A DNA stretch of 21,867 nucleotides. Origin: a virus. The translations under genes and the position numbers were made by a program. The DNA lies in IMG/VR virus record IMGVR_UViG_3300020450_000109, positions 1 to 21,867 of that record. The stretch is one strand, 5' to 3'. Below, one piece after another: positions 12,488 to 14,499 of the stretch. Each line of letters begins with the position of its first letter. The first letter of the stretch is position 1. The notes beneath the pieces were generated by a model. That model worked only from the letters and a program-made list of their open reading frames with translations, made no database searches and was not told the origin of the DNA.

Positions 12488-12901
12488 ATGCCCATGCGAG
12501 ATAAAATTAAAAACATGTCAATTAAATCAACAATCGCTGCAGTAGCAGCATCTCCATTCCTATTCGCTGGTGCAGCTTTTGCTGGTCCTTACGTGAATAT
12601 TGAATCTAATCTTTCATATCCTGACGGAGATTACACAAATGCCACGACTGATGTGCATTTCGGGTACGAAGGTGCTTATAATGAAAAGTTAGGATATTAC
12701 GTACAAGGTGGTCCTTCAATCAATCACAGTGAAACAACTGATAAGACAGAAACAGAACTTTCTGGTAAGGTTGGCGGAACCTATGCACTTGATGAAGACA
12801 CTGCACTTTATGCTGAACTCTCAGGTCAAACAAGTGAAGACGCAACAGGTGACGATGTTGTTAACTGGGGTGGAAAATTAGGAGTCAAGTTCCTATTCTA
12901 A
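12488..12901 (+). CDS. Secreted beta-rich protein, possible small outer-membrane barrel
   Basis: A protein of up to 137 residues with a clear Sec signal peptide: basic start, hydrophobic core STIAAVAASPFLFAGA, then AFA before Gly33, a signal peptidase I site. The mature part, about 105 residues, alternates polar and hydrophobic residues with many Gly and Tyr (DVHFGYEGAYNEKLGYYVQG) and ends in Phe, as outer-membrane barrels do. I cannot name a family. The start is uncertain: ATG 12488 directly follows the T-run of the upstream terminator; ATG 12515 gives a more normal signal peptide. If exported it would reach the host periplasm or outer membrane, perhaps altering permeability or blocking superinfection; that is inference. 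A terminator follows. Confidence 0.75.
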   Translation: MPMRDKIKNMSIKSTIAAVAASPFLFAGAAFAGPYVNIESNLSYPDGDYTNATTDVHFGYEGAYNEKLGYYVQGGPSINHSETTDKTETELSGKVGGTYALDEDTALYAELSGQTSEDATGDDVVNWGGKLGVKFLF

Positions 12902-12925: not shown

Positions 12926-12954
12926 AACCCCTTACAATGTAAGGGGTTTTTTTT
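12926..12954 (+). terminator. Intrinsic terminator after the secreted protein gene
   Basis: A 10-bp stem AACCCCTTAC / GTAAGGGGTT (12926-12935 and 12939-12948) with a three-base loop AAT, running into eight T residues (12947-12954). It separates the secreted-protein unit from the hli cluster. Confidence 0.92.
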
Positions 12955-13028
12955 ATGAAAGATAATCTATACTTATACACCTTATTAGTATTTTTATTGT
13001 TTGTACGGTTATCTAGGTATTTTTACTA

Positions 13029-13057
13029 TTACATAGTCTTAATATTTCCTATATAAT
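13029..13057 (+). promoter_or_regulatory. Probable promoter of the hli cluster
   Basis: TATAAT at 13052-13057 is a perfect -10 located 29 bp before the first hli ATG and downstream of a terminator, so a promoter is needed here. The best -35 at 17-bp spacing is TTACAT (13029-13034), a poor match. The rest of the gap 12955-13085 is AT-rich with no other clear signal. Confidence 0.5.
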
Positions 13058-13085: not shown

Positions 13086-13304
13086 ATGACTTCCTCAAAA
13101 ACTCAAAAGTACACAACCACTGAGTCAGGTGGAAGACAAAACATGTTCCCAACAGAGACTCGTCCTTATATTGACGAGTCAGTCTCATACGCAGGATACC
13201 CTCAAAACGCTGAGAAAGTAAATGGACGTTGGGCAATGATTGGTTTTGTTGCACTACTAGGTGCATATGTAACAACTGGTCAAATTATACCAGGTATCCT
13301 CTAA
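13086..13304 (+). CDS. hli: High-light-inducible protein Hli (72 aa)
   Basis: A single-helix chlorophyll a/b-binding-like protein of the cyanobacterial Hli/Scp family; these bind chlorophyll and carotenoid in the thylakoid and protect photosystem II under light stress. The C-terminal domain reads AEKVNGRWAMIGFVALLGAY followed by VTTGQIIPG, matching the ExxNGRxAMxGF signature with Glu, Asn and Arg all present. The N-terminal 40 residues are polar and stromal-side. I start it at ATG 13086; the frame also has a TTG at 13059 and an ATG at 13143. It is the first and longest of four tandem hli genes. Phage copies probably keep photosynthesis running during infection. Confidence 0.95.
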   Translation: MTSSKTQKYTTTESGGRQNMFPTETRPYIDESVSYAGYPQNAEKVNGRWAMIGFVALLGAYVTTGQIIPGIL

Positions 13305-13349
13305 GACTAAGGTCTCTTACAATTCTACCCCTATTACAAATCTAAGAAC

Positions 13350-13457
13350 ATGACTCCAGAAGCAGAAAAATTTAATGGTTGGATGGCAATGCTAGGCGTT
13401 GTAGCAGCAATCGGTGCATACGCAACAACAGGACAAATCATACCAGGCATTTTCTAA
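13350..13457 (+). CDS. hli: High-light-inducible protein, short form with NGW variant (35 aa)
   Basis: A 35-residue Hli reduced to little more than the helix: MTPEAEKFNGWMAMLGVVAA, then IGAYATTGQIIPGIF. The Glu and Asn of the motif remain, but the Arg of NGR is Trp. In the family that Arg forms the salt bridge with the partner helix's Glu and helps hold chlorophyll, so this copy may only work paired with a complete Hli. The stop TAA shares its last base with the ATG of the next hli (TAATG). A 45-base gap with no clear signal separates it from the first hli. Confidence 0.9.
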   Translation: MTPEAEKFNGWMAMLGVVAAIGAYATTGQIIPGIF

Positions 13458-13570
13458 TGAACAACAACGATATTTTTGAAAAAGCAATTGGTAGACCAGC
13501 AATGTTAGGATTTATGATCCTATGTGGAACCTACCTCACAACAGGTCAACTCATTCCAGGCATAGTATAA
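13457..13570 (+). CDS. hli: High-light-inducible protein, IGR variant (37 aa)
   Basis: A 37-residue Hli starting at the ATG that overlaps the previous stop by one base. The helix reads FEKAIGRPAMLGFMILCGTY then LTTGQLIPGIV. Glu and Arg of the motif are kept, but Asn is replaced by Ile (IGR instead of NGR) and Pro follows the Arg. Asn normally supports chlorophyll coordination, so pigment binding may differ from the other copies. It complements the second copy, which keeps Asn but lacks Arg. The next hli starts one base after its stop. Confidence 0.88.
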   Translation: MNNNDIFEKAIGRPAMLGFMILCGTYLTTGQLIPGIV

Positions 13571-13571
13571 A

Positions 13572-13712
13572 ATGTATCCATCAAACGCAAAAGAAGTCGA
13601 AAGACAAAAAGTAGTTGCTGAGAAATTAAATGGCAGATTCGCCATGCTCGGCATCATTGCAGCACTAGGTGCTTACTTTACTACAGGACAAATCATACCT
13701 GGTTTCGTATGA
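13572..13712 (+). CDS. hli: High-light-inducible protein Hli (46 aa)
   Basis: The fourth tandem Hli, with an intact motif: VAEKLNGRFAMLGIIAALGA followed by YFTTGQIIPGFV. Glu, Asn and Arg are all present. A short charged N-terminus (MYPSNAKEVERQKV) precedes the helix. Its stop overlaps the ATG of the next small membrane gene as ATGA (13709-13712), so it is translationally coupled to that gene. Confidence 0.93.
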   Translation: MYPSNAKEVERQKVVAEKLNGRFAMLGIIAALGAYFTTGQIIPGFV

Positions 13713-13864
13713 ACGGGTTTGAAATAACTCCATCACTAGCAATCCTATGGTGTTTTTACCCCATAGGAATACTAGTCTTCATCGAATTATTTTTAGATAA
13801 ATCTGATGATGACGATGATGACGAGGGTGGAGGAGTAATGTCACCAGTTTACCAAGGAATTTAA
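13709..13864 (+). CDS. Small single-span membrane protein with Asp-run tail (51 aa)
   Basis: A 51-residue protein overlapping the last hli by ATGA. Residues 8-29 form one transmembrane helix (PSLAILWCFYPIGILVFIEL), followed by a charged linker with six consecutive Asp, a Gly-rich turn and the tail MSPVYQGI. The strong charge contrast suggests the tail stays on the cytoplasmic side. I cannot name the family. The coupling to an hli gene suggests a thylakoid or photosystem-associated role, which is inference. Confidence 0.7.
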   Translation: MNGFEITPSLAILWCFYPIGILVFIELFLDKSDDDDDDEGGGVMSPVYQGI

Positions 13865-13865
13865 A

Positions 13866-13940
13866 ATGCAACATCTAGTATTCACAACTCTTATCGCAGC
13901 GTACATCTTCACCAATATTGGTTCGATAGCATACGCATAA
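13866..13940 (+). CDS. Tiny hydrophobic peptide (24 aa)
   Basis: A possible 24-residue gene one base after the previous stop: a hydrophobic stretch MQHLVFTTLIAAYIF then TNIGSIAYA. It is long enough for one membrane helix and has no charged residue except His3. The spacing and direction fit the run of small genes around it, but a peptide this short could be chance, and the upstream GGAATTTAAA is only a fair ribosome site. Function unknown. Confidence 0.45.
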   Translation: MQHLVFTTLIAAYIFTNIGSIAYA

Positions 13941-13981
13941 CATTTTAGGTCTTTATACTTTTATCCCTCAATCTAAAAAGC

Positions 13982-14077
13982 ATGAAAAAATTATTTTATA
14001 GTCCATACTACCCATTGATGGAGTTTGGATTTTTTGTTGTTATAGGAACAGCAGCAGGCATGGCAGGTTTGATATGA
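13982..14077 (+). CDS. Tiny membrane peptide (31 aa)
   Basis: A 31-residue frame: a basic, aromatic start (MKKLFYSPYYPLMEF) then a membrane helix GFFVVIGTAAGMAGLI. The positive N-terminus followed by one hydrophobic span fits a small bitopic membrane protein. Its stop overlaps the ATG of the next small frame as ATGA (14074-14077), an arrangement used by most real gene pairs in this window, which supports both. A 41-base gap upstream shows no clear signal. I do not recognise it. Confidence 0.5.
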   Translation: MKKLFYSPYYPLMEFGFFVVIGTAAGMAGLI

Positions 14078-14154
14078 AACCTTTTCCATTTAAATATGTT
14101 CCATATTGGTTCATCACATCTATGATTCTTGCAACATTGCAAAGCATTGGTTAG
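14074..14154 (+). CDS. Tiny membrane peptide (26 aa)
   Basis: A 26-residue frame, MKPFPFKYVPYWFITSMILA then TLQSIG, overlapping the previous stop as ATGA. Two Lys and several aromatic residues precede a short hydrophobic stretch, so a membrane-surface or single-span peptide is likely. The -35 element of the next promoter lies inside its last codons. Function unknown. Confidence 0.45.
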   Translation: MKPFPFKYVPYWFITSMILATLQSIG

Positions 14155-14165
14155 TATGCTATACT
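14137..14165 (+). promoter_or_regulatory. sigma70-type extended -10 promoter for the replication module
   Basis: TTGCAA (14137-14142), 17-bp spacer, TATACT (14160-14165) preceded by TGC (14157-14159). It resembles the gp55 promoter in -35, spacing and TGC extension. Transcription would start near 14172, about 16 bases before the ATG at 14188, and would read through gp45, gp44 and beyond. Confidence 0.7.
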
Positions 14166-14187: not shown

Positions 14188-14499
14188 ATGAAGTACCGTG
14201 AAAAAGAGATTTTAGATGAAATCTCTGAATATATAAGCAATACTTACAGAGGGCATTACAGCAGTGGAGGAGTTCAAACTCTAGATCTCATAGACTCTGT
14301 TGGAGATGCCGAAGCATTCTGTAGAAGTAACATACTGAAGTATGCCTCAAGATATGACAGAAAGGGCACAGCACGAAAGGATATCATCAAGATAATCCAT
14401 TATGCTGTGCTCTTGCTTCATTTTAATGATAAACAAGAAAAAGCAAATACTATCAATAATAATCAACCATCTGCATTTACTGTAGATTATGACAAGTAA
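14188..14499 (+). CDS. DUF3310 family protein
   Basis: A 103-residue protein whose central block fits DUF3310: RGHYSSGGVQTLDLIDSVGD, then AFCRSNILKYASRYDRKG and the helix DIIKIIHYAVLLL. The family pattern is HY...(I/V)...D.I, GN.iKY..R...K, then a KA..YL helix; here Gly of GN is Ser. Relatives include a T7-type nucleotide kinase, but the family is mostly of unknown function. It is the first gene after a strong early-type promoter and directly precedes the sliding clamp, with which its end overlaps if the longest gp45 frame is used. A role in nucleotide supply is possible. Confidence 0.72.
   Translation: MKYREKEILDEISEYISNTYRGHYSSGGVQTLDLIDSVGDAEAFCRSNILKYASRYDRKGTARKDIIKIIHYAVLLLHFNDKQEKANTINNNQPSAFTVDYDK

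Follow-up and report, generated by a model that had tools for sequence, protein, structure and literature searches.

The window analyzed in this study is a 21.9-kb virus contig (21,867 nucleotides) from a T4-like cyanophage. It carries genes of the gp46/47, gp55, gp45 and gp44 types, named in part from annotated matches. An array of four hli genes and four very short ORFs, termed N1 to N4, form one same-strand run spanning positions 13086-14154. The features of this region are as follows.

12488-12901: cyanophage outer-membrane beta-barrel protein gene (PF24653) that precedes the hli array
12926..12948, + strand: intrinsic terminator-like hairpin (a stem of 10 pairs and then a T run), which ends the outer-membrane-protein gene
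13028..13057, + strand: weak promoter-like site ATTACA-18-TATAAT (10 of 12 matches) upstream of the hli array
13086..13304, + strand: hli gene 1, with the Hli core NGRWAMIGFVALLGAYVTTGQIIPG
13350..13457, + strand: hli gene 2
13457..13570, + strand: hli gene 3, which has a TAATG overlap with hli gene 2
13572..13712, + strand: hli gene 4
13709..13864, + strand: N1, 51 amino acids (T4-GC 437 / phrog_7843; host homologue PMED4_15491)
13866..13940, + strand: N2, a single-span peptide of 24 amino acids, found only in phages on present evidence
13982..14077, + strand: N3, 31 amino acids, with the motif EFxFFxxVGxxAGxxG (host homologues of 34-38 amino acids)
14074..14154, + strand: N4, 26 amino acids, with the motif KPxPxKxVPYxF (host homologues of 35-36 amino acids)
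14137-14165: promoter consensus match
14188-14499: DUF3310 protein frame (PF11753) upstream of gp45

The original prediction placed frames of 51, 24, 31 and 26 codons on the + strand after the four hli genes, and these are indeed present at 13709-14154. The junctions it described are also found: N1 begins inside an ATGA overlap at 13709, with hli gene 4 ending at 13712, a single base separates the N1 stop codon from the N2 start codon, and N3 and N4 overlap at a second ATGA at 14074. That description left out the 41 nt that separate N2 from N3. The further statement that the frames fill the space up to the next promoter must be weakened, because the site at 14137-14165 is only a consensus match, and promoter matches across the region (this one and 13028..13057 included) are no commoner than in shuffled sequences. 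No terminator-like sites were seen on the coding strand within 13086-14154, and a single predicted transcript for this interval fits their absence. A PF24653 outer-membrane beta-barrel gene also lies 5′ of the hli array in approximately 50 related loci.

N1 has one hydrophobic span, AILWCFYPIGILVFIELFL, along with six consecutive Asp residues (DDDDDD) and a tail that reads GGGVMSPVYQG. The best 19-residue Kyte-Doolittle means are 2.23 for N1, 1.72 for N2, 1.74 for N3 and 1.06 for N4. By this measure the hydrophobic span of the window N4 is weak, yet its host homologue reaches 2.07.

Coding status and arrangement of N1 to N4 in cyanophages

Family models built from phage alignments match 156-166 loci for N1 and N3, 162 for N2 (a count that includes some weak matches that are hli) and 58 for N4. 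No opposite-strand matches of these models were found. Scans of IMG/VR identified 151 stretches encoding N3 relatives and 174 encoding N1 relatives, and 80 loci from each scan were kept for analysis. More than 150 loci from isolate and IMG/VR cyanophages carry homologues arranged in the same order.

When compared with phage records by blast, the DNA similarity extends over the hli array into N1-N3 in P-SSM3, P-SSM4 and P-RSM3. The N1 gene is annotated as hypothetical in P-SSM3 and P-SSM4 (T4-GC 437 in the latter), and the N2 and N3 counterparts in these two phages carry no annotation. Annotated relatives of N3, T4-GC 554 and 594, are found in P-HM1 and P-SSM2. All four families are present in P-TIM68 in the order of the window, and in S-SSM4 and S-SSM6b in a different order, with N4 straight after hli. 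In profile comparisons, N1 matches T4-GC 437 / phrog_7843 (E 1.8e-21, residues 5-50) through its FYP span and acidic run, and N3 matches phrog_17067 / T4-GC 554, 594 (E 2.3e-5) over the EFxFFxxVGxxAGxxG part. N2 and N4 match no PHROG. The description of the four genes as unannotated is only partly right, since relatives of N1 and N3 are partly annotated.

In phages, Hli-N1-N2-N3 usually comes first and either T4-GC 438 or N4 comes next; alternatively, N4 lies between Hli and N1. The arrangement Hli-N1-N2-N3-(N4 or T4-GC 438) is found at two genome sites, in the vicinity of psbA (24 loci) and of gp45/DUF3310 (32 loci), and the cluster must therefore have moved, whole or in parts. Tight junctions recur among distinct gene pairs. 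The Hli-N4 junction is -1 in 25 of 25 pairs, the N3-N4 junction is -4 or -1 in all 14, and the N3-T4-GC 438 junction is -1 or -4 in all 48. The N2-N3 junction is -4 in 38 of 73 pairs, and the N1-N2 junction is -1 in 45 of 92.

Where N3 does not overlap N2, a leader preceding N3 (window positions 13958-13980; loci L002, L023-L028, L008 and L018) is conserved. It takes two forms, TTTTATCCCTCAATCTAAAAAG or CTGAGGAGCACAAG, the second of which includes a Shine-Dalgarno-like GAGGAG.

The protein T4-GC 438 shares with N4 the slot after N3, the same -1 or -4 junctions and an N-terminal membrane segment that resembles N4, but it has an extra domain of approximately 75 residues that N4 lacks. It belongs to PHROG 14182, labeled 'esterase' (e.g. 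L003:3861-4178, L005:3626-4000 and L012:2334-2708). The protein has a total of only about 105-125 residues, begins with a membrane segment like that of N4 and contains a domain with a further match to phrog_1187 (function unknown), and its enzyme name 'carboxylesterase' looks doubtful. Additional hli-linked families of similarly small size were encountered, including T4-GC 272, T4-GC 719 and a 26-29-residue peptide that starts with MKALIQTLFLG or a similar sequence (L004:3800-4130, L013:1063-1282 and L265:8162-8383).

The substitution pattern is that of protein-coding genes. Between close pairs of sequences, third codon positions account for 63% of the changes in N1, 52% in N2, 67% in N3 and 65% in N4, and the majority of single-change codons are synonymous. 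Codon models (GY+F3X4 in IQ-TREE, with 40 sequences for each family and 35 for N4) give omega values of 0.159, 0.183, 0.082 and 0.124 for N1 to N4, respectively. Twice the log-likelihood difference from omega = 1 is 475, 166, 377 and 206 in the same order; the null also fixed kappa at 2.5 and so this is not a pure one-parameter test, but differences of this size put the outcome beyond doubt. The comparison of synonymous and nonsynonymous change that had been suggested for these frames thus comes out in favor of coding (omega 0.08-0.18, changes mostly at the third position), and we looked for, and did not find, the contrary outcome of frames that are not conserved or of substitutions that ignore codon position. 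Given the conserved order, the omega values, the strand-specific matches and the recurring ATGA/TAATG junctions, N1 to N4 are real, conserved genes under purifying selection.

Homologues and gene neighbors in Prochlorococcus chromosomes

The search of cyanophages and picocyanobacteria proposed along with the original prediction yields phage homologues for all four peptides and host homologues for N1, N3 and N4. A narrowed N3 alignment matched three named Prochlorococcus genomes, including HNLC2 (a 1.48-Mb scaffold). N3 was identified in 75 of 251 genomes in a family-wide search, and among 242 genomes drawn from across the class, the only ones with matches measure 1.5-1.9 Mb. Strong N1 matches (E < 1e-11) occur at approximately 60 places, every one in a genome of 2.0 Mb or less. 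Weak N1 matches (E ~1e-5) in larger genomes, which mostly involve the Asp-rich tail, were treated as composition and left uncounted. N4 is present in 10 of 201 genomes. For N2 there were no matches in 201 genomes, an empty answer that is weak at 24 residues, and some loci seem to carry a divergent N2 missed by the model. Judged by homology, N1, N3 and N4 are genes common to phage and host, and N2 appears to be without a host homologue at this sensitivity.

Part of this sharing has been described before. A 2008 report noted homology of the phage frames PSSM4_181 and PSSM2_278 with PMED4_15491 of Prochlorococcus MED4, a frame detected there by microarray (PMC2518516). Both phage frames are N1 homologues collected here (L003 and L004), and so the N1 family and its presence in phage and host were already on record. 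In the portion of that report available here, no function is given for the family, and linkage to hli or PTOX, N2, N3 and N4 are not mentioned. Within the literature available here, a search for PSSM4_181, PSSM2_278 and PMED4_15491 returned no other paper, and we found no published report of phage-host sharing for N3 or N4.

Strongly supported branches of an N1 tree (72 rows, 57 columns) force at least four phage/host changes; the tree is otherwise poorly resolved, and only label changes forced by such branches were used. In this tree, the island-type host copies have the S-SSM4 type of phage copy as their nearest neighbors.

The gene neighborhoods of the host homologues link N1, N3 and N4 to hli, PTOX and a carotenoid-enzyme-like gene. 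An Hli-Hli-N1-N3-Hli arrangement is found in three host genomes, and N4 immediately follows an hli stop codon in five host loci. Within 12-kb regions, hli is present in 10 of 20 regions for N1, 9 of 20 for N3, 12 of 15 for N4 and none of 20 controls. The control regions come from the same or related genomes, at spaced positions that we chose by hand and not at random. One-sided Fisher values against these controls are ~2e-4, ~6e-4 and ~6e-7, respectively, and overstate the case because many of the host regions are orthologous loci of related strains and are not independent. The host N3 is mostly solitary in that 11 of its 20 regions lack hli.

Eight genomes share one N1 neighborhood, and in the genome where it was read completely, the gene adjoining N1 is PTOX (PF01786, 1.8e-14). 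In all nine non-hli N4 loci, a CrtISO/phytoene-desaturase-like gene coding for an FAD enzyme of 505-509 residues lies 33-43 nt downstream of N4. The copy of this enzyme that was tested matches the carotenoid isomerase model TIGR02730 (2.4e-68) and the crtI family, below the curated cut-offs. Eight of these nine loci also have PTOX at a distance of about 4 kb. Several Prochlorococcus genomes carry, in addition, a homologue of T4-GC 272 that is separated from N1 by approximately 2 kb.

Candidate roles of the N peptides

The tie of these genes to hli, as first suggested, is strongly supported by the conserved order, by purifying selection and by the linkage of host N1, N3 and N4 to hli, PTOX and the carotenoid enzyme; a thylakoid or photosystem role is plausible. 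Building on the coding status, conserved order, coupled junctions, host homologues and host neighbors observed above, we lean on balance toward a model in which the peptides are host-shared, translationally coupled, single-span thylakoid microproteins that would act jointly with Hlips to give photoprotection or maintain PSII in the infected cell. The window copy would be expressed from 13086-14154 as one polycistronic unit, with the four hli genes followed by the four microprotein genes, and translational coupling through the ATGA/TAATG junctions would cause the peptides to be made alongside the Hlips. Each peptide may then insert as a single span into the photosynthetic membrane as an Hlip accessory that could stabilize, place or pigment-load Hlips on PSII assembly or repair complexes. 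The peptides might also ease electron pressure on the plastoquinone pool, and the outcome would be that photosynthesis goes on during infection. Against this reading stand the missing host homologue of N2, the weak span of the window N4 and the mostly solitary host N3, and gene linkage is no proof of interaction.

Known systems offer partial parallels. The hli genes of cyanophages and the multi-copy hli genes of Prochlorococcus islands show the same operon-like runs and the same phage-host sharing, and their products likely occupy the same membrane. However, Hli proteins have the core NGRxAM...TGQ, whereas N1 to N4 lack both the Hli core (A/E..NGR.AM...G, TGQ) and a match to Pfam Chloroa_b-bind. 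Psb34 (Ssl1498) is a small PSII-assembly protein that tunes how Hlips bind CP47-containing PSII intermediates (PMC9458560), the mode of action proposed here for N1 to N4, but its HliA/B-like N-terminus is absent from them by inspection. SliP4 of Synechocystis, a high-light-induced protein of 37 amino acids that helps organize photosynthetic complexes (PMC12850537), resembles the N peptides in its small size, and is known here without a sequence relation. Norf4 was ruled out as a relative, as it is reported absent from alpha-cyanobacteria. When P-HM2 infects MED4 in the light, host hli and PTOX are induced, and hli is among the phage auxiliary genes that are expressed with the middle genes (PMC5082946).

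The main rival to the Hlip-accessory reading is that the peptides chiefly serve the plastoquinone pool and carotenoid side, as accessories or anchors for PTOX and for the carotenoid isomerase/desaturase-like enzyme, and neighbor hli only because both are light-stress genes. The placement of N1 beside PTOX in eight genomes, and of N4 directly 5′ of the carotenoid-enzyme-like gene at nine loci, eight of them with PTOX roughly 4 kb off, speaks for such a role. We nevertheless regard it as unlikely, because the constant neighbor in phages is hli, N4 directly follows hli in five host loci and no PTOX lies beside the cluster in the window. It is more doubtful still that these are phage membrane peptides with roles apart from photosynthesis, such as holin-like, superinfection-exclusion or anti-defense functions. 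Small single-span proteins typically serve such purposes, and the PHROG families matched by N1 and N3 are of unknown function, but the homologues in host chromosomes adjoin photoprotection genes and no match to PADLOC was found for N1 to N4.

Frames this short and tightly coupled could also act as leaders whose translation matters and whose peptide does not, and the conserved stretch 5′ of N3 is in keeping with this. Strong purifying selection on the amino acids, together with modules that reorder and travel separately (N4 lies before or after N1), makes the leader explanation very improbable. Overlooked small subunits of PSI, PSII, cytochrome b6f or NDH-1 were suggested by the size and single span of the peptides in the original prediction. 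This proposal is already disfavored and now seems hardly credible: none of the Protein Data Bank sequences, which include cyanobacterial photosynthetic complexes, was matched significantly by any of the four profiles, and N1 to N4 match no Pfam or NCBIfam family.

A broader version of the Hlip-accessory reading, which we offer tentatively and consider less than likely, is that N1, N3, N4 and the further hli-linked small families form an unrecognized set of Hlip partners in Prochlorococcus and its phages. Through this set, Hlip placement might be coupled both to the supply of carotenoids and to the PTOX electron valve, and phages would carry it as a ready-made photoprotection module.

What is new is that N1, N3 and N4 reside in Prochlorococcus chromosomes, where they lie beside hli more often than control regions do. 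Photosynthesis genes borne by phages are a classic example of how viruses steer primary production in the ocean, and to our knowledge work on such genes has concerned psbA, psbD, hli, PTOX and petE. Alongside photosynthesis genes we find peptides of 24-60 residues, unstudied and under strong selection, in both phages and Prochlorococcus, and N1 to N4 illustrate that standard annotation misses much phage metabolic cargo. Prochlorococcus carries approximately 20 hli genes, little is known about what each of them does, and the N peptides are direct, testable candidates for Hlip partners. Because three of the four genes also lie beside light-protection genes in Prochlorococcus chromosomes, it is probable that this virus brings along a group of photoprotection helper peptides that have so far escaped study.
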